From an uncultured Roseicyclus sp. (GTDB lineage: Bacteria > Pseudomonadota > Alphaproteobacteria > Rhodobacterales > Rhodobacteraceae), in contig CANLXA010000002.1 of assembly GCA_947494975.1 (NCBI GenBank), forward strand, positions 372,001 to 436,000: a DNA stretch of 64,000 nucleotides, in the 5' to 3' direction. Positions 1,934-31,544 of this stretch are shown here, piece by piece. Numbering within the stretch: the stretch's first letter is position 1; every line of letters begins with the position of its first letter. Position numbers and translations under genes: made by a program. The notes beneath the pieces are model-generated. The model worked only from the letters and a program-made list of their open reading frames with translations, was not told the origin of the DNA and ran no database searches.

Positions 1934-2857
1934 TTAGACCGCCAGGTTGGGGATGATCTGCTTCTTGCGGCTGACCACGCCGGGCAGGACCAGCGTGTCG
2001 CCATTGCCGGCCACCGTGGCGAAGCTCTTCTCGGCGACGGTGCGGACCAGATCGTTGGGGACCAGCAAGGTCGCTTCCTCGTTGAGGATGTCGACGACGA
2101 AGAGAAGCACCTGGTCGGCGCCGTCATCGGCGGCCACGTTCGGCATCGCCTCCATCAAGGCGTCCTTGCGCGACAGCACAGTGTCGGGTGACGTGGTTTC
2201 CAGCACCGACACCCGGAAGGTCTTGCCGCCCACCTCGTAGGTTTTGCTATCCATGCGGAGCAATTCGGCATCGGTGAAAGCGGAGACATCCGATTTCGCG
2301 GCGAACATCTCGGCGGCATAGGCGGGGATGTCCAAGCCCAGATCCTCGGCCAGGGCATGGGCGATCGCCTTGTCTTCGTGGGTGGTGGTGGGCGAGCGGA
2401 ATTCCAGCGTGTCCGACAGGATGCAGCTGAGCATGGCGCCCTTGATGCCCCTGGGCGCCTGGGCCAGATCGCTGCCGATCATCTTGTGCATGATCGTGGC
2501 GGTGCAGGCGAGCGGCTCGATGCGGATGTCGATGGGGCCCTTGGTTTCCAGGCCGCCGACCAGCTTGTGGTGATCGATGATGGCGCGGATATCCGCGGCA
2601 TTGATATCGGTCGGGAGTTCGCTTGGGTTGTTGGTGTCGACGATCACGACGGGCGTATCCGCCGCGACGCTGTCGATGATCCGCGGTTTGTCGAGGGTCC
2701 AGTGATCCAGCACGAAGGCGGCTTCGGTATTGGGCTCACCCAACAGCACGGCTTCGGCCGCGACGCCTTTGATCTGGTTGAGATACCACGCCCAAATGAT
2801 CGGCGAGCCGGTGGAATCGGTGTCGGGGGATTTATGGCCGAATACCAGGGTGGTCAT
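1934..2857 (-). CDS. ppaC: Manganese-dependent inorganic pyrophosphatase (DHH family II)
   Basis: A 307-residue enzyme that hydrolyses pyrophosphate to phosphate in the cytoplasm. The sequence shows the family II signature: FGHKSPDTDS at residues 6-15 with metal-binding His and Asp, VDTNNPSE near 75, and IIDHHK near 93 (the DHH motif). The C-terminal DHHA2 domain is present, with the substrate Arg/Lys region near the end (SRKKQ). Length equals that of typical PpaC. Start ATG 2857 directly precedes the conserved TTLVFGHK. Confidence 0.93.
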   Translation of the reverse strand: MTTLVFGHKSPDTDSTGSPIIWAWYLNQIKGVAAEAVLLGEPNTEAAFVLDHWTLDKPRIIDSVAADTPVVIVDTNNPSELPTDINAADIRAIIDHHKLVGGLETKGPIDIRIEPLACTATIMHKMIGSDLAQAPRGIKGAMLSCILSDTLEFRSPTTTHEDKAIAHALAEDLGLDIPAYAAEMFAAKSDVSAFTDAELLRMDSKTYEVGGKTFRVSVLETTSPDTVLSRKDALMEAMPNVAADDGADQVLLFVVDILNEEATLLVPNDLVRTVAEKSFATVAGNGDTLVLPGVVSRKKQIIPNLAV

Positions 2858-11093: not shown

Positions 11094-11825
11094 ATGATGA
11101 AACGCCTGCTTGCCGCGCTTGTCCTCTCCGCCCTGGCGGCCACGCCGCTGCGCGCAGATTGCGTGGTGCTGCTGCACGGGCTGGCGCGGTCCGAAACATC
11201 GCTGTTTTTGCTGGAGGAGCGTCTGGCGGCGCAGGGCTACACCGTCATCAATGCGGGCTACCCGTCGACCCGCGCGACCATCGCCGAACTGGCCGAGCAA
11301 TCGATCCCGCCCGCCTTGGCGCGCTGCGGGCTGACGCGCGTGCATTTCGTGACCCATTCCATGGGCGGCATCCTTGTGCGCTATTGGTTGGGCCGCCATG
11401 AACCCGCGTTTCTGGGCCGTGTCGTGATGCTGGCCCCGCCCAATGGCGGCTCGGAACTGGTGGATGTGTTCGGGCCGCTCGAGCCGTTCGAGTGGCTGAA
11501 CGGCCCGGCAGGAATGCAGCTGGGGACGGATCCGGGCGATCTGGTGAACCGGTTGGGCGAGGTGACGTTCGATCTGGGCGTGATCGCCGGAAACCGGTCG
11601 CTCAACCCGATCTATTCGGCGCTGATCCCCGGGCCCGACGATGGTAAGGTGGGCGTCGACAACACCCGCGTTGCGGGCATGCGCGACCATATCGTGCTGC
11701 CGACGACCCACACCTTCATGATGAACAACCCGCTGGTGATCGCGCAGGTCGAGGCCTATCTGGCCAATGGCGCCTTTGACGAGGATCTGGGCGTGATCGA
11801 GGCGATTGGCGACCTGATCGAATAG
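11094..11825 (+). CDS. Secreted alpha/beta hydrolase (lipase/PGAP1-like)
   Basis: About 243 residues from ATG 11094. A signal peptide ([19 protein letters not shown]) is followed by [13 protein letters not shown], the oxyanion region, and [14 protein letters not shown], the nucleophile elbow with Ser. Asp in [12 protein letters not shown] and His in LPTTHTFM near the C-terminus complete a plausible triad. It resembles the short acetyltransferase/lipase group of periplasmic esterases. The stop is 20 bases from that of convergent purK. Confidence 0.83.
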
Positions 11826-11844
11826 AGGTTTTTCCGCGTTTCGC

Positions 11845-12909
11845 CTATGCCGGGCCGGTCACGCGGTTGATATGGCCCATCTTGCGCCCGGGGCGGGTTT
11901 CGGATTTGCCATACAGGTGGATCTGGACGCCGGGCTCACCGGCCAGGGCCGCCGCGCGCTCCACATCCTCGCCGATCAGGTTCTCCATCGTGACATTGGC
12001 GTGGCGCGTGCCGTCGCCGAGCGGCCAGCCGGTGATAGCGCGGATATGCTGCTCGAACTGGTCGACGGCGCAGCCCGCCTGCGTCCAATGCCCGGAATTG
12101 TGCACGCGCGGGGCGATTTCGTTCACCACGAGGCCCGCCGGCGTCACGAAAAGCTCCACCCCCAGAACACCGACATAATCGAGCGCCGTCAAAATGCGCG
12201 AGGCGATCAGGACGGCATCGGTGCGCAGGGTGGCAGAGATCGCCGCGGGAACCGTCGTGACGGACAGAATACCATCCTGGTGGACGTTCTCGCCCGGATC
12301 GAAGACGGCAACCGCCCCGTCCTGCCCGCGGGCTGCGATCACGCTGATCTCCTTGGAGAAATCGACGAAACCCTCGGCGATGGCAGGCGCCCCGCCAAGG
12401 CTTGCAAAGGCGGCCTCGGCCCCATCGGGGGCCATGATGCGGGCCTGCCCCTTGCCGTCATAGCCAAAGCGCCGGGTCTTGAGGATGGCGGGCGTGCCGG
12501 TGGCCGACAACGCGGCGTGCACGTCACTGCCCAGGGGCGCGAAGGGGGCGGTGGCCAGGCCCTGATCGCGCAGGAACGCCTTTTCGATCAGGCGATCCTG
12601 GCTTGTCTCCAGGGCGCGCCGGTCGGGGAACAGCGGGGTGGTGCCGGAAAGGGCGTCAAGCGCGTCGGCGGGGATGTTCTCGAACTCGAAGGTGATGACA
12701 TCGCAGGCCTCAGCAAAGGCGCGCAGTGCATCGAGATCGTCGTATCCCGCCTGCGTCCACCTATGGGCGACATCGGCGGCGGGGGCGCTGCCGGGCTCGA
12801 AAACATGGGTCTTGTAGCCCAACCGTGCGGCGGCCATGGCCAGCATGCGGCCCAATTGACCGCCGCCCAGGATGCCGATGGTGCTGCCCTGCGCGAGGGG
12901 CTCAGTCAT
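11845..12909 (-). CDS. purK: 5-(carboxyamino)imidazole ribonucleotide synthase
   Basis: 354 residues, ATP-grasp. [20 protein letters not shown] at 8-27 is the PurK N-terminal Rossmann-like motif; [14 protein letters not shown] near 150 is the ATP-binding loop; [27 protein letters not shown] and VTMENLIGE are signature elements. It carboxylates AIR with bicarbonate and ATP in purine synthesis. Its start overlaps purE by 8 bases, so the two are translated together as a purEK operon. Confidence 0.95.
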
Positions 12910-18719: not shown

Positions 18720-20216
18720 ATGAAATCGGCGATTTGGGGTGCAGTGGCCGCGGTGGCAATCGCAACGTCGGCCTTTGGGCAGGACGCGAGCGGCGAGACC
18801 ACGACGGATATCCAGCAATACGACAATGGCGGGATCTACGAGGGCGAGTTCCGCAACGGCGTCCAGCACGGGACCGGCACCTACCGGCTGCCCAACGGGT
18901 ATGAATATACCGGCGAATGGGTCGATGGCGAGATCCGCGGCCAGGGCCGCGCGTTGTTCCCCGATCAGTCGATCTATGAGGGCGCCTTCGTGGCGGGCCG
19001 CCCGCAGGGTATCGGTACGATCACCTTCGCCGATGGCTCCACCTATGAAGGCGAATGGGTGGAGGGCCGGATCGAAGGCGCCGGTACCGCGATCTATTCC
19101 AACGGCGTCACGTATACCGGCCAGTTCCGCAACGCGCTGCACCATGGCACCGGCGTGATGACCGGCCCCAACGGCTACCGCTATGAAGGCGAGTGGAATG
19201 ACGGGGTGAAGCAGGGCACCGGGACGATCACCTATCCTGACGGGGCCACCTATGCGGGCCAGTTCGCCGACGGCGTGCGCTCGGGCACCGGGCGGCTCGA
19301 AATGGCCGATGGCGTGATCTACGAGGGCGCCTGGGCCGAGGGCCAGATCAATGGCGAAGGCACGCTCACGCAGCCCAATGGCGACGTCTATGTCGGCACG
19401 CTGGTCAATGGCCAGCGGCAGGGGCAGGGGCGTGTGACCTATGCCAATGGTGATGTCTATGAAGGCGCCTTTGCCGATGATCGCAGGCAGGGCCAGGGCA
19501 CATTCACCGGCACCGATGGCTATGTCTATGTCGGCGCCTGGATGGAGGGCCGGATCGAGGGGGAGGGCCGCGTGACCTATCCCGACGGGTCGATCTATGA
19601 GGGGACGTTCCGCAACGATCTTGCCCATGGCACCGGCACGATCACCTATCCCGACGGGGCCTCCTATACCGGCGAATGGGTCGATGGCGTGATTCAGGGC
19701 AACGGCACCGCGACCTATGCCAACGGGCTGGTCTATGAGGGCCAGTTCCTCAATGCCCGCCAGCACGGCCAAGGCACGATGAGCCACCCCGATGGCTACC
19801 AGTACCAGGGCCAATGGGAAGACGGGCTGCGCCACGGCCAGGGCCGCGCCACCTATGCCGATGGCACGATCTATGAGGGCACATTCGCCGCCGGTCAGCG
19901 GGAGGGCGAAGGCACGCTCACCATGCCCGACGGGTTCACCTATAGCGGCGCATGGGATGACGGCGAGATCAACGGCCAAGGCACCGCGACCTATTCCAAC
20001 GGCGATGTCTATACCGGCACCTTCGTGAATGGTCGCCGCCAGGGCGCGGGCACGATGACCTATGCCACCGGCGAGGTGCTGGAGGGCGAGTGGGAGAATG
20101 GCCTGCCGACCGACGGCACCGCGGGCGATGCCCCGGCGCCTGCGGACGATCCCGATACCGGCGAAGTGGCGCCGGCCGAGGGCGGAGCCGAGACGCCGAC
20201 CGATACCGACGAGTAG
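18720..20216 (+). CDS. Secreted MORN-repeat protein
   Basis: 498 residues. A signal peptide (MKSAIWGAVAAVAIATSAFG) is followed by 18 full 23-residue MORN repeats (about residues 37-450) and one partial, then an acidic Pro/Glu/Asp-rich tail. Each repeat carries Y-x-G-x-[FW]...G-x-G-[TR]. The sixth position alternates F and W through repeats 1-8, breaks at 9 (Leu), and resumes through 19. MORN arrays bind phospholipid or build extended beta scaffolds, so a periplasmic or surface scaffold is likely but unproven. GAGGGGG precedes the ATG. No cargo or enzymatic domain is attached. Confidence 0.9.
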   Translation: MKSAIWGAVAAVAIATSAFGQDASGETTTDIQQYDNGGIYEGEFRNGVQHGTGTYRLPNGYEYTGEWVDGEIRGQGRALFPDQSIYEGAFVAGRPQGIGTITFADGSTYEGEWVEGRIEGAGTAIYSNGVTYTGQFRNALHHGTGVMTGPNGYRYEGEWNDGVKQGTGTITYPDGATYAGQFADGVRSGTGRLEMADGVIYEGAWAEGQINGEGTLTQPNGDVYVGTLVNGQRQGQGRVTYANGDVYEGAFADDRRQGQGTFTGTDGYVYVGAWMEGRIEGEGRVTYPDGSIYEGTFRNDLAHGTGTITYPDGASYTGEWVDGVIQGNGTATYANGLVYEGQFLNARQHGQGTMSHPDGYQYQGQWEDGLRHGQGRATYADGTIYEGTFAAGQREGEGTLTMPDGFTYSGAWDDGEINGQGTATYSNGDVYTGTFVNGRRQGAGTMTYATGEVLEGEWENGLPTDGTAGDAPAPADDPDTGEVAPAEGGAETPTDTDE

Positions 20217-25186: not shown

Positions 25187-25552
25187 ACGATTGAGCAGGC
25201 GGGCGGCGGCTCAACCGCACTGCCCCCACGTTCCGAAACAAGAGGCGCCCCACCGCCGGTAGGTCGGTGCCGGGGCGCGCGGTGCGGAAACGGTCAGGGG
25301 GAAAGCCAGGTTCCGTCATGTTTCGTCACAACCTTATGCGCTTTTCGCAGTTTGTACGTGTCCGAGATCAGGATGGCGCGCGCGCTCCGGCGTCGTCTGG
25401 CCGAAAACGACGTGCGCGATTTCCGATCCTGGCGACAGACCAAGAGCGCGATGCGCCGCACAGGAGGCCCGCAAGGGGCGTCCCGTTGGCCAATAATTGT
25501 TTCGAAAAGGTTAACAAGATCACGAATATCACGTTTTATCAGTGAGTTAAGT
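25187..25552. other. Gene-free stretch between the barrel-like gene and sat-cysC
   Basis: Nothing coding was recognised. A GC-rich imperfect hairpin with GCGCCCC at 25245-25251 and GGGGCGC at 25272-25278 could end the plus-strand transcript. The second half is AT-richer than its surroundings. Confidence 0.5.
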
Positions 25553-25576
25553 GGGGTTATCAACCTTGATAACCCC
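25553..25576 (-). terminator. Terminator-like hairpin at the 3' end of sat-cysC
   Basis: GGGGTTATCAA at 25553-25563, CC, TTGATAACCCC at 25566-25576: an 11-bp perfect stem 6 bases beyond the stop codon on the minus strand. It lacks a strong T-run. Confidence 0.65.
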
Positions 25577-25582
25577 CCTCTT

Positions 25583-27655
25583 TCACGCCGCGATCAGGCC
25601 CATCGATTCCAGCTTCAGCAACACCTGCTGCGCGCAGTAATCGACGTCCATACCCTCGGTATCCACCACCAACTCCGCCTGCGTCGGCGCCTCATAGGGA
25701 TCCGAGATACCGGTGAATTCCTTGATCTTGCCCTCCCGCGCCAGCTTGTAGAGGCCCTTGCGGTCGCGGCGCTCACATTCCTCCAGCGAGGTCGCCACGT
25801 GGATCTCGATGAAGGCCCCGAATTGCTCGATCTCCTCCCGAACCGCGCGGCGCGTATTCGTGTAGGGCGCGATCGGCGCACAGATCGCGATGCCCCCGTT
25901 CTTGGTGATTTCCGAGGCCACGTAGCCAATCCGGCGGATATTCAGGTCCCGGTGTTCCTTGGAGAAGCCAAGCTCGGATGACAGGTTCTTCCGCACGACA
26001 TCGCCATCCAGAAGCGTCACCGGACGCCCGCCCTGTTCCATCAGTTTCACCATGATGGCGTTCGCGATGGTCGATTTGCCCGATCCGGACAGCCCGGTGA
26101 AGAACACCGTGAAGCCCTGCTGCGACCGGGGCGGGGAGGTCCGGCGCAGTTCCCTCACGACTTCGGGGAAGGAGAACCAGTCAGGGATCTCCAGCCCTTC
26201 CCGCAAGCGTCGGCGCAGTTCCGTGCCCGAGATATTCAGGATGGTGACATTCTCACGATCCGCAATCTCGTCATTCGGTTCGTACTGCGCCCGCTCCTGC
26301 ACATAGACCATGTGTTTGAAGTCGACCATTTCGATGCCCATTTCGTCCTGATGGTCGCGGAACAGATCCTGCGCATCGTAGGGTCCGTAGAAATCCTCCC
26401 CCGCCGAGTTCTTGCCCGGCCCGGCATGGTCCCGGCCCACAATCATGTGGGTGCAGCCGTGGTTCTTGCGGATCAGTCCGTGCCAGACGGCCTCGCGCGG
26501 GCCGGCCATCCGCATGGCCAGGTTGAGAAGGCTCATCGTGGTGGTGGCGGCGGGATATTGATCGAGCACCGCCTCGTAACACCGCACGCGGGTGAAGTGA
26601 TCGACATCGCCCGGCTTCGTCAGGCCGACCACGGGGTGGATCAACAGGTTGGCCTGCGATTCCTTCGCGGCCCGGAACGTGAGTTCCTGATGCGCGCGGT
26701 GCAGGGGGTTGCGCGTCTGGAAGGCGACAATCTTGCGCCAGCCAAGTTTGCGGAAGAAGGCGCGCAGCTCATTCGGCGTGTCGCGGCGGGCCCGGAAATC
26801 GTAATGAACCGGTTGCTGAATACCTGTGATCGCCCCGCCCAGATAGATCGGACCCGCGACGTTGTGCAGGTAATTGACGGCCGGGTGGGCGATGTCATCG
26901 GCACCATAGACCTTGGCAGCTTCATTGGCCTTGTCGGGCGTCCACTTGTCGCTGATCGACAGGATCGCAAGGATCACACCCTCTGCGTCGCGAAGCGCGA
27001 TGTCCTGGCCTTCTTCGATGGCGTCGGCGAAGGTTTCGGACACGTCGAGCGTGATCGGCATCGGCCACAACGAGCCGTCGGCCAAGCGCATGTTTTCGAC
27101 GGCGGTGTCGTAATCCTCCTGCCCCATGAACCCCTTGAGCGGGTTGAACCCACCGTTCATCAACAGTTCCAGATCGCAGACCTGGCGCGCCGTGAGGTCC
27201 CACGACGGCAGGTCGGCGGCTTCCATCTTGAGCTTCTGGGCGCTGTCATAGGAGACGTAGAGTTCCGGTATCGGGGCGTGCAAGGGCGCGGCCATGGAGG
27301 TGATCCTTTTCGATGGGATGAGGTGTGCGCCCTTACCGGTCAGTTCGGCATGGAGGGCGTTATATTCGTCCAGCTTGCGGGCCAGAAATCGGTCGACCAG
27401 CTGAGCTTTTCGGGCGGCCCCGCGCGACGTCAGCGTGTAGGCGAAGCGTTGGCGTTTGTCGGGGCTGTTCCGGTCAGTGACCTGCACCAACCCGGCCGTC
27501 GTCGCAGCGCGCAGGAGGGTGTTGAGCCGACCAAGGCTGACGCCGAGCGCTTCTGCCGTTGTCCGCTGCGACGCCTCCGGCGCCGTGTCGAGTTGGCGCA
27601 GCAGGCGGAAGAGCGTGTCGTCTTCCGGTAGCGCAGGAGCAGCGGCAAAGGGCAC
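25583..27655 (-). CDS. sat-cysC: MarR-like winged helix joined in frame to bifunctional ATP sulfurylase/APS kinase (PAPS synthetase)
   Basis: 690 residues from GTG 27655 in one open frame. Residues about 11-108 match EPS-associated MarR regulators (QRTTAEALGVSLGRLNTLLR, FAYTLTSRGAARKAQLVDRF, LARKLDEYNALHAEL). Residues 121-690 are a normal-length sulfurylase-kinase: QTRNPLHRAHQELTFRAA, GRDHAGPGKN, and P-loop GLSGSGKST. It makes PAPS from sulfate and ATP. ATG 27295 (residue 121) has AAAAGGA 8 bases upstream inside the reading frame, so a separate PAPS synthetase could also start there. No stop codon separates the domains. Two palindromes precede the gene. Confidence 0.88.
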   Translation of the reverse strand: MPFAAAPALPEDDTLFRLLRQLDTAPEASQRTTAEALGVSLGRLNTLLRAATTAGLVQVTDRNSPDKRQRFAYTLTSRGAARKAQLVDRFLARKLDEYNALHAELTGKGAHLIPSKRITSMAAPLHAPIPELYVSYDSAQKLKMEAADLPSWDLTARQVCDLELLMNGGFNPLKGFMGQEDYDTAVENMRLADGSLWPMPITLDVSETFADAIEEGQDIALRDAEGVILAILSISDKWTPDKANEAAKVYGADDIAHPAVNYLHNVAGPIYLGGAITGIQQPVHYDFRARRDTPNELRAFFRKLGWRKIVAFQTRNPLHRAHQELTFRAAKESQANLLIHPVVGLTKPGDVDHFTRVRCYEAVLDQYPAATTTMSLLNLAMRMAGPREAVWHGLIRKNHGCTHMIVGRDHAGPGKNSAGEDFYGPYDAQDLFRDHQDEMGIEMVDFKHMVYVQERAQYEPNDEIADRENVTILNISGTELRRRLREGLEIPDWFSFPEVVRELRRTSPPRSQQGFTVFFTGLSGSGKSTIANAIMVKLMEQGGRPVTLLDGDVVRKNLSSELGFSKEHRDLNIRRIGYVASEITKNGGIAICAPIAPYTNTRRAVREEIEQFGAFIEIHVATSLEECERRDRKGLYKLAREGKIKEFTGISDPYEAPTQAELVVDTEGMDVDYCAQQVLLKLESMGLIAA

Positions 27656-27671
27656 GTCGACAAGTCCGATG

Positions 27672-27691
27672 TTTGTTCACGAATGAACAAA
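27672..27691 (-). promoter_or_regulatory. 20-bp palindrome, proximal candidate operator of the MarR-PAPS synthetase gene
   Basis: TTTGTTCA at 27672-27679, CGAA, TGAACAAA at 27684-27691. It lies 17 bases before the GTG start. A second copy with the same arms lies 49 bp further upstream. Confidence 0.7.
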
Positions 27692-27720: not shown

Positions 27721-27740
27721 TTTGTTCAAATCTGAACAAA
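27721..27740 (-). promoter_or_regulatory. 20-bp palindrome, distal candidate operator of the MarR-PAPS synthetase gene
   Basis: TTTGTTCA at 27721-27728, AATC, TGAACAAA at 27733-27740. The arms are identical to the proximal copy and only the 4-base centre differs. The centre-to-centre distance is 49 bp, near five helical turns, which allows cooperative binding on one face. Confidence 0.7.
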
Positions 27741-29528: not shown

Positions 29529-31544
29529 ATGGCCAAGATCGATCTGACCGCGCTCTACCGGCAAGGGCTGGCCCATCAACAGGCGGGCCGCCTGGACGAG
29601 GCATTGGCGCTCTACAACCAAATCCTTGCGGCGCAGCCGGGCATTCCCGAGGTGCTGTTCCAGCGCGCCCGGTGTGTGTCGGGGAGCGACCCGAAGGCGG
29701 CCGAGGCCGATTTCCGCAAGGCCCTGAAGGGGAAGCCGAAAGACCCCGCCATTTGGCAGGGTCTGCACGGCGTGTTGCGCGGGCCGGCCCGTGTGAAACT
29801 GGAGAAAGACGCACTGCGCGCCGGTATCCCGATCGGATCGGAGGCCGAGCTGCGCCCGATCCTGGCGGCGATCGCCAAGGGGCGGGCTGTGCAGGCGGAA
29901 CAGGCGGCGCTCAAACTGACCAGGCTGGCTCCCGCTGCGTTCTGGCCCGCCTATGCGCTGGGGGAGGCGCGCCTGGCGCAGTCCAAACCGGCGGTGGCCA
30001 TACTTGAGGCCGCCCATGCCCGTGCACCGGGCCATGCCAAGGCCCGGCTGGCCCTTGCCCGGGCCTATGCCGCCGCGGCCCGACCTGCGACGGCCGAGGA
30101 GGTATTGCGCGCGGGTGGCGATCTGACGGCGGATGCGGCCCTGATTTTGGCCCGGATCTACCGGGATACCGCACGGCCGGAGGAGGCGGTGGCGTTGCTG
30201 GAAACGTACCGTGCAACCGATAAACGCGTGCTGGCCGATCTGGCTGTGTCACTGGCCCAAACCGGGCGCGGCGGCCAAGCGCTTGAGATTATCGGACGGA
30301 TGTCATCGCCGCCCGCTTCCCTGTTCCGGTCCTGCACGATTGCAGCCGAGGAGGCAGGCGATTTCTCCGGGGCAGAGGCTCTCATCGACGCGGCACTGGC
30401 GACGCCGCAGGTCGGGCTGCTGACCCATCGCGCGCAGCTTCGCCAATCCGCCGGAGATTTTGCGCAGGCAGACGCCGACCTCATGGCGGAAATCGACGCC
30501 TCGCCCACCTTTGGAGAGTCCTATCGCGCCTATGTCAATGGCCGCAAGATCAAGGCCGGCGATCCAATACTCCCCCGTTTGGACGCGGCCCTTGAGCGGG
30601 CCGATCCGTCCGGGTTGGACCGCGCCGCACTGCAATTCGCAGCGGCCAAAGCAAGCGCCGATCTGGGTGAGCACGCGCAGGTTTTCCCCCATCTTCACGT
30701 CGCCAATCGCGAGATGGCGCAGGCGTTTCCCTATGGGTTTGAAAGTGACCTTCGGGAGGCGCGCGCGCTAAAGGCCGATTGGCGGATCTTGCGGGATATT
30801 CCGGCAGATGGCCCCACCGATCCCATCGTGTTCGTAACGGGCCTGCCGCGATCCGGCACGACGCTGGTTGAAACCATCCTTGCGGCTCATCCGCGCGTTA
30901 GCGCAGGGGGTGAGATGCCGTTTCTGTCGCGCGCCTTGTCCCCCGTCATCGAGGCGCTGCGCCATGGTGCGCCGGATGGCGACCTGCTGGCGGAGGCCGG
31001 GTCGCGCTATCTCACCGCGGCGCGGCGGCGGGTGGGTGACGCGCCCGTGATCGTCGACAAGGCGATTTCCACCTTTTCACGGATCGGCCATGCTGCCCGC
31101 GCCTTGCCCGGCGCACGCTTCCTTCTCGTGCGGCGTGACCCGCGCGATGTGGGGCTGTCGCTCTATCGCAACATGTTCCCCCATGGATTGCATCGCTATG
31201 CCTATGACCTTGCGGATATGGGCAGATACATCCGGCTCCACGATGCCATTACCACCTTCTGGCAAGCCACGTTGCCCGACCGGATCCATGTGGTTGATTA
31301 TGAAGATCTGACAAAAGATCCCGAGCCGACCATTCGCGCCATGCTGGACGCCGTGAATTTGCCGTTCGATAAGGCCTGCCTTGCGCCGGAGCGCAGTGGG
31401 CGGCGGATTCAGACGCTCAGCTTTGCACAGGCCCGCCAGCCGATAGGAACCCGTGCCATCGCGGGTTGGCAGCGCTACGAAGGCGACCTCAAGCCGCTGA
31501 TCGAGGCGCTGGGCACCGAGATTGATCTGGAGGCGACGCCCTAG
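29529..31544 (+). CDS. TPR-containing sulfotransferase
   Basis: 671 residues. The N-terminal half (about 1-390) is a TPR-like helical array, starting with LYRQGLAHQQAGRLDEALAL. The sulfotransferase domain begins near residue 432 with PIVFVTGLPRSGTTLVETIL, whose PRSGTT loop binds the 5' phosphosulfate of PAPS; RFLLVRRDPRDVGLSLYRN is the 3' phosphate-binding motif. It sulfates an unidentified acceptor (sugar, lipid or protein). It starts 4 bases after the Lrp-like gene, near the PAPS synthetase gene, which supplies its donor. Confidence 0.88.
   Translation: MAKIDLTALYRQGLAHQQAGRLDEALALYNQILAAQPGIPEVLFQRARCVSGSDPKAAEADFRKALKGKPKDPAIWQGLHGVLRGPARVKLEKDALRAGIPIGSEAELRPILAAIAKGRAVQAEQAALKLTRLAPAAFWPAYALGEARLAQSKPAVAILEAAHARAPGHAKARLALARAYAAAARPATAEEVLRAGGDLTADAALILARIYRDTARPEEAVALLETYRATDKRVLADLAVSLAQTGRGGQALEIIGRMSSPPASLFRSCTIAAEEAGDFSGAEALIDAALATPQVGLLTHRAQLRQSAGDFAQADADLMAEIDASPTFGESYRAYVNGRKIKAGDPILPRLDAALERADPSGLDRAALQFAAAKASADLGEHAQVFPHLHVANREMAQAFPYGFESDLREARALKADWRILRDIPADGPTDPIVFVTGLPRSGTTLVETILAAHPRVSAGGEMPFLSRALSPVIEALRHGAPDGDLLAEAGSRYLTAARRRVGDAPVIVDKAISTFSRIGHAARALPGARFLLVRRDPRDVGLSLYRNMFPHGLHRYAYDLADMGRYIRLHDAITTFWQATLPDRIHVVDYEDLTKDPEPTIRAMLDAVNLPFDKACLAPERSGRRIQTLSFAQARQPIGTRAIAGWQRYEGDLKPLIEALGTEIDLEATP

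Follow-up and report, generated by a model that had tools for sequence, protein, structure and literature searches.

A conserved fusion of a MarR_EPS-type winged helix to PAPS synthetase in Rhodobacteraceae, a candidate autoregulating enzyme with an internal start

A single reading frame in the window (the whole stretch of 64,000 nucleotides analysed, from an uncultured Roseicyclus sp.) joins a winged-helix DNA-binding domain of the MarR_EPS type to a complete ATP sulfurylase/APS kinase (PAPS synthetase). The gene probably encodes an autoregulating PAPS synthetase: fused and bare forms of the enzyme would be formed from one gene, and the fused form would bind palindromes in front of it and limit its own transcription. 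Such a regulator with two products is considered likely, because the fused genes share a conserved internal start as well as a palindrome upstream.

Organization of the fused gene

The gene and its parts are located as follows:

25583..27655, minus strand: fused gene (MarR_EPS-type winged helix plus ATP sulfurylase/APS kinase), 690 codons from GTG to TGA, no stop inside
27341..27625, minus strand: winged-helix DNA-binding domain, residues 11–105 (NCBIfam match to TIGR04176)
27296..27340, minus strand: linker, residues 106–120, containing the internal ribosome-binding site (from the alignment)
26141..27280, minus strand: ATP sulfurylase, PUA_2 (residues 126–280) and ATP-sulfurylase (residues 291–505) by Pfam, motifs QTRNPLHRAH and VGRDHAGPG kept
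25661..26119, minus strand: APS kinase, residues 513–665, P-loop GLSGSGKST intact (Pfam; alignment to 3cr8, 2gks and 1i2d)
25550..25579, no strand assigned: inverted repeat just past the stop codon, possible transcript end, without a T run

The initial annotation had described one stop-free frame of 690 codons combining a MarR-like domain with a full ATP sulfurylase/APS kinase; the frame itself and the matches to TIGR04176 and NF004040 confirm this description. Within the frame, no start codon lies between the preceding stop and GTG 27655. TIGR04176 (MarR_EPS; NCBIfam cut-off 88 bits) matched the isolated 119-residue piece with 88.9 bits, the domain inside the whole protein with 84.2 bits, i.e., just under the cut-off, and the fused gene in the genome-wide profile search with 88.5 bits, i.e., above it; a second match above the cut-off was not found in this genome by the latter search. 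Among the Pfam models, HTH_24 is over its cut-off for the N-terminal domain of the window's protein and MarR_2 is under its own, MarR_2 being matched by 40 of 47 members at E ≤ 0.01. Solved MarR structures gave a weak profile match to the N-terminal domain (E about 0.01). The linker is more variable than both flanking domains (alignment, pairwise comparison).

Residues 121–689 match NF004040 (PAPS synthetase) with 1036 bits (cut-off 669). The NPLHRAH stretch of the sulfurylase module aligns with 1i2d and 2gks, and GLSGSGKST of the kinase module with 2gks and 3cr8; we take these to be the motifs named HxxH in sulfurylases and P-loop in kinases. Most catalytic-motif positions of both modules are invariant across 47 aligned rows, and the alignment to solved enzymes shows that both sulfurylase and kinase retain their catalytic motifs. 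In the 36 solved sequences matched, the best stretches all begin at residue 128 at the least, so the N-terminal domain is covered by none of them. A search of this genome with the enzyme as query gave one match. At the locus, no terminator was found by the terminator scan and no RNA family at gathering scores (Rfam).

Conservation of the fusion in Rhodobacteraceae

Loss of a stop codon or a sequencing error could have joined two genes, or an untranslated leader could be open by chance, and the enzyme alone is evidently a complete protein, since unfused genes begin at or near the internal Met. The initial annotation had named a stop between both parts in relatives, together with a sequencing error, as the outcome that would overturn the fusion. 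The fusion stood: the same in-frame arrangement with zero internal stops is present in 80/80 best relatives listed (GTDB genomes), and it is taken as a real trait rather than a sequencing error because of this shared frame. These relatives were ranked by their match to the whole fused protein, for which reason the list favours fused genes. Moreover, 24 of 26 selected close pairs gave a value for the N-terminal domain (the other two were saturated), with a median dN/dS of 0.15, from which purifying selection on this domain is deduced. Together with the spread of the fused-type domain over 58 genera, described below, frame conservation and dN/dS refute an artefact, which we regard as barely credible. 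In one family genome (G237), an apparent TAG within the match turned out on reading to be the normal end of the gene, with the fusion intact, and a stop flagged within 130 codons upstream at another locus (L215) sits just before the fusion frame.

A family sample of 295 genomes (genus representatives, not selected for the fusion) contains the fused-type domain in 58 genomes, i.e., in 58 genera, and 57 of the 58 frames span 690–797 codons, the exception (G032) being a frame of 267 codons close to the end of a contig. The fused-type domain is absent from the remaining 237 of the 295 genomes and hence is not essential to the enzyme; some enzyme match at E ≤ 0.001 was obtained in 278/295 genomes, part of these matches being weak or partial. 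Across the 295 genomes the fused-type domains form a group of their own, with 166–213 bits versus 54–115 bits for the remaining matches to a profile that was built from fused domains. In two further even samples, of the class (385 genomes) and of the phylum (398 genomes), long fused frames were seen only in Rhodobacteraceae (2 and 15 genomes, both counts including the window's own genome).

Internal start of the bare enzyme

Two further features lie at the junction of linker and enzyme:

27304..27307, minus strand: AGGA, Shine-Dalgarno-like site inside the frame, 8 bases ahead of the internal ATG (81/81 fused genes)
27293..27295, minus strand: ATG, internal start codon of the bare enzyme, residue 121 (ATG or GTG in 81/81 fused genes)

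The sequence AAAAGGA, reported initially to end 8 bases before ATG 27295, is present as claimed. In the window's gene and the 80 best relatives, the spacing between AGGA and the internal ATG (72 genes) or GTG (9 genes) is exactly 8 bases without exception. The Arg codon within the internal AGGA is always AGG in these 81 genes; AGG represents 81 of 83 Arg codons within the six codons before the internal start but 23 of 4215 in the remainder of these genes. Likewise, where Val occupies the internal start position, its codon is GTG in 9/9 cases. Of the fused genes in the family sample, 57/58 have AGGA 8 bases before the internal start (one of the 58, L118, was missed by the pattern and was checked by hand), the exception reading CGGA (L181), and seven extra fused loci (two of the same genus, five of the family) agree in this spacing 7/7. 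The 81-gene set and the family sample are not independent, since some genomes occur in both.

Any of AGGA, GGAG or GAGG precedes the fusion's own start in 1/81 genes and other in-frame ATGs in 72/1278 cases. The internal site is also not simply common to unfused genes, since only one of 28 unfused enzyme starts (assigned by script) has such a sequence. The anti-Shine-Dalgarno pairing energy at the internal start is unexceptional (median −4.0 kcal/mol; about a quarter of the other in-frame ATGs reach −3.8 kcal/mol or lower), so that the evidence for this start is its invariance and not its strength. The conserved internal start argues that free enzyme is made too, in line with the earlier proposal of a bare product from the same gene (81/81 and 57/58 genes in the two sets).

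Promoter region and palindromes

Two palindromes precede the fused gene:

27672..27691, no strand assigned: proximal palindrome TTTGTTCA-N4-TGAACAAA, putative operator, 16 bases upstream of the start of the fusion
27721..27740, no strand assigned: distal palindrome with TTTGTTCA/TGAACAAA arms, second putative operator, at a distance of 49 bp from the proximal one

Both consist of perfect 8-base arms (TTTGTTCA/TGAACAAA). The two palindromes pointed out in the initial annotation are thus real and mark the promoter of the fused gene, but only the gene-proximal one is general: two or more copies of GTTCN6GAAC lie within 200 bases of the start in 25/80 loci. GTTCAN4TGAAC lies within 200 bases upstream of 80/81 fused genes, the single miss being due to a contig end 25 bases upstream of the start. 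Fused genes of the family sample are preceded by GTTCN6GAAC in 57/58 and by GTTCAN4TGAAC in 56/58 cases, one upstream region being cut by a contig end; for L198, the stretch searched comprised 91 bases. None of the 28 unfused starts has GTTCN6GAAC within 300 bases.

The strict form TGTTCAN4TGAACA occurs at two places in this genome, both at the promoter of the fused gene, and it is absent from this promoter in 32 of the 58 fused genomes. Of 65 strict sites in the 295 genomes, 28 are located at the fused promoter (26 genomes; sites counted by eye). The remaining 37 lie away from the fused gene (versus 7 for a reversed control), so the palindrome word is not exclusive to it. A wider regulon was also looked for by means of the 14-base core and gave no clear pattern, in that the 5 other genomic places with this core have no plain link to sulfur or polysaccharide metabolism (judged by eye, without family search).

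Across 80 loci, the palindrome core follows a conserved −10-like TGNNAT at a distance of two bases; CTTT, likewise conserved, is found farther upstream. In 54/80 loci the core ends 16–20 bases before the start. This position directly after the −10-like element and near the start fits repression, and the fused protein would probably act as a repressor. The window's own bases match the −35/−10-like consensus of its relatives only in part, and the promoter scan found no sigma-70 promoter at the locus.

Stand-alone MarR_EPS relatives

The family sample contains 45 stand-alone MarR_EPS matches (frames of 119–335 codons, 54–115 bits), which resemble the fused domain in family (TIGR04176), length (about 105 residues) and the GTTCN6GAAC palindrome. 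The latter is located upstream of 10 of 23 stand-alone genes and is missing in the other 13, and 22 stand-alone loci (153 kb) contain only 11 GTTCN6GAAC in all. The palindrome is therefore tied to the domain family and not only to the fused gene, since stand-alone genes have it too. Where examined, the stand-alone genes are found near polysaccharide-type genes (8 of 10 hand-picked flanking proteins at 7 loci; the remainder being a nucleotidyl transferase and a subunit of exonuclease VII), whereas the fused gene is located beside trxB rather than in the exopolysaccharide gene region that the name MarR_EPS would lead one to expect.

One locus (L168) contains two stand-alone MarR_EPS genes (2002–2370, minus strand; 11766–12200, plus strand), only one of which has the palindrome upstream. 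At four others (L166, L170, L171 and L173), three of which lack the palindrome, the frames upstream of the stand-alone gene have a CGSL-like stretch in common, a hint of another conserved DNA element.

Unfused loci and evolutionary history

Unfused enzyme genes were compared at 28 loci, picked from among the family-sample enzyme matches listed. No separate MarR_EPS gene was found within the roughly 1.5 kb examined upstream of these 28 genes; a split gene was thus seen in 0/80 best loci and 0/28 unfused loci. The unfused orthologues begin at or near the internal start of the fusion (starts assigned by script). The gene trxB is a neighbour in 77/92 fused and 17/28 unfused loci (within the DNA examined). 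Since fused and unfused genes have this neighbour in common, it looks as if the domain was gained or lost in place, at one chromosomal position.

In an enzyme tree of 121 sequences (93 fused, 28 unfused), which has low support and a sampling in favour of fused genes, both types are mixed and 16 changes are needed, compared to at least 19 (mean 25) in 200 label shuffles. Distances of the N-terminal domain and the enzyme correlate modestly (r 0.26; none of 500 permutations as high). Among the best 20 of 527 plasmid records, 10 match the query over 80 % or more of its length, and no fused copy was found among them; these 10 copies are regarded as unfused, because their matches begin only at residues 113–127. 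Unfused PAPS synthetase copies with 80–90 % identity are encoded on plasmids NC_008387.1, NC_015729.1, NZ_CP049347.1 and others (Roseobacter, Sulfitobacter).

Proposed mechanism and alternatives

We infer the two products, the DNA binding and the repression from position and conservation. Transcription would begin at a promoter overlapping the palindromes. On the resulting single mRNA, ribosomes would start weakly at GTG 27655, yielding little fused protein, and initiation at the internal ATG 27295 behind AGGA would yield more of the bare enzyme. The fused form, probably within mixed enzyme oligomers, would then bind the palindromes beside the presumed transcription start and thereby limit transcription of its own gene. 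More speculatively, and beyond the part considered likely above, occupancy of the enzyme with APS or PAPS may switch DNA binding, as biotinoyl-AMP switches BirA. Direct sensing of flux or of a ligand (APS, PAPS or sulfate) had also been suggested in the initial annotation. APS is an attractive ligand in this respect because of its role at a branch point: this genome encodes one CysH, has no CysD among its PF01507 matches and contains four Sulfotransfer_3 matches over cut-off. One may thus tentatively envisage a sensor of sulfur flux, in which mostly bare oligomers contain few fused subunits at a ratio set by the two competing starts, with APS/PAPS occupancy gating operator binding; on balance this extension is doubtful. 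If true, the cell would need neither a separate regulator nor an inducer to match sulfate activation to demand.

Ligand sensing competes with a simpler scheme, itself a sub-case of the autoregulation proposed here, in which the fusion merely fixes the proportion of repressor to enzyme, so that the amount of enzyme is measured and no ligand is sensed. This scheme draws on the same gene facts, and the resemblance of the domain to stand-alone MarR_EPS proteins in length and palindrome suggests that it may bind DNA without input from the enzyme. Simple autorepression is also allowed by the variable linker, which argues against tight contact between the domains. However, it would not require fusion to the enzyme, and no split version was seen among the 80 best and 28 unfused loci. 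We regard the simpler scheme as a serious possibility that falls a little short of an even chance.

Alternatively, the domain could mainly control other genes (for polysaccharides or sulfation), with the enzyme serving as sensor of sulfate-donor supply. The polysaccharide-type genes adjoining stand-alone relatives (8/10 picked flanking proteins), a sulfotransferase-type gene nearby in the window and the four genomic Sulfotransfer_3 matches over cut-off agree with such a role, but the fused promoter is the only place in this genome with the strict 16-base site, and where the 14-base core recurs (5 other places) no plain link to sulfur or polysaccharide genes was seen by eye. Control of other genes as the main function is thus improbable, and autoregulation of the fused gene is preferred.

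Comparison with known systems

To our knowledge, enzymes regulating their own genes via a built-in DNA-binding domain are few. In BirA, which is both biotin ligase and repressor, a winged helix precedes an adenylate-making enzyme and acts at the promoter of its own pathway. The fused PAPS synthetase is similar in having a winged helix ahead of an adenylate-forming enzyme, homology of the enzyme parts not being claimed; BirA is ligand-controlled, whereas for the fused PAPS synthetase a ligand is conjectural. BirA is not known to have a conserved internal start for its bare enzyme. PutA, NadR and NrtR also combine an enzyme or enzyme-like part with a DNA-binding part in one polypeptide and regulate their own pathways. 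They involve other enzymes and DNA-binding families, and in the fused PAPS synthetase one gene seems to give both a fused and a bare form. As in such trigger enzymes, a DNA-binding domain and an active enzyme would be united in one polypeptide, both activities being predicted. By this comparison, the fused PAPS synthetase resembles trigger enzymes but differs in enzyme, domain family and two-start layout.

The solved proteins 2gks and 3cr8, bifunctional ATP sulfurylase/APS kinases, and 1i2d, a fungal ATP sulfurylase, represent the same two-module enzyme over nearly the whole length. Alignment with them starts no earlier than residue 137 of the fusion and leaves the N-terminal domain uncovered. 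A fungal PAPS reductase is reported to be a moonlighting transcription activator (PMC4848566); it is likewise a sulfur-assimilation enzyme with a role in transcription, but a different enzyme and from a eukaryote. An earlier report of a MarR_EPS–PAPS synthetase fusion was not found among the papers listed by searches of an open-access collection.

The fused gene thus represents a candidate self-regulating enzyme at a central step of sulfur metabolism, present in 58/295 genus representatives, with the domain present or absent at the same chromosomal place across the family. Rhodobacteraceae are abundant in the sea. Sulfate activation supplies their cysteine and, through PAPS, their sulfated polymers, and the proposed autoregulation is a testable explanation of how its level is set. 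The internal start provides a simple genetic handle, in that the fused and the bare form should each be removable by a different single change.

Sulfur metabolism context

PF01507 matches two proteins of this genome, one CysH and one DndC, and neither qualifies as CysD. CysH has CC and CxxC cysteines, which are typical of APS-reducing enzymes, but it scores above the cut-off of the phosphoadenylyl-sulfate reductase model and below that of APS_reductase. DndC (DNA phosphorothioation) is encoded on contig C7 of 48.7 kb (L230, 1399–2820) and matches TIGR03183 with 528 bits (cut-off 290). In a table on Ruegeria pomeroyi, the sulfurylase gene (fused or unfused) is without significance mark, and cysJI and cysH are marked in several columns (PMC9769926).

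One of the four Sulfotransfer_3 matches over cut-off in the genome is located in the window, within a protein (29529–31544, plus strand) composed of TPR-like repeats (recognized by eye) and a C-terminal Sulfotransfer_3 domain (contig C2:402822–403370). This protein, matched in 4/92 fused loci (within the DNA examined), is possibly a PAPS user encoded close to the PAPS synthetase. The window also encodes a 498-residue protein (18720–20216, plus strand) with many short repeats of the YEGEW/GxGT type, MORN-like by eye.
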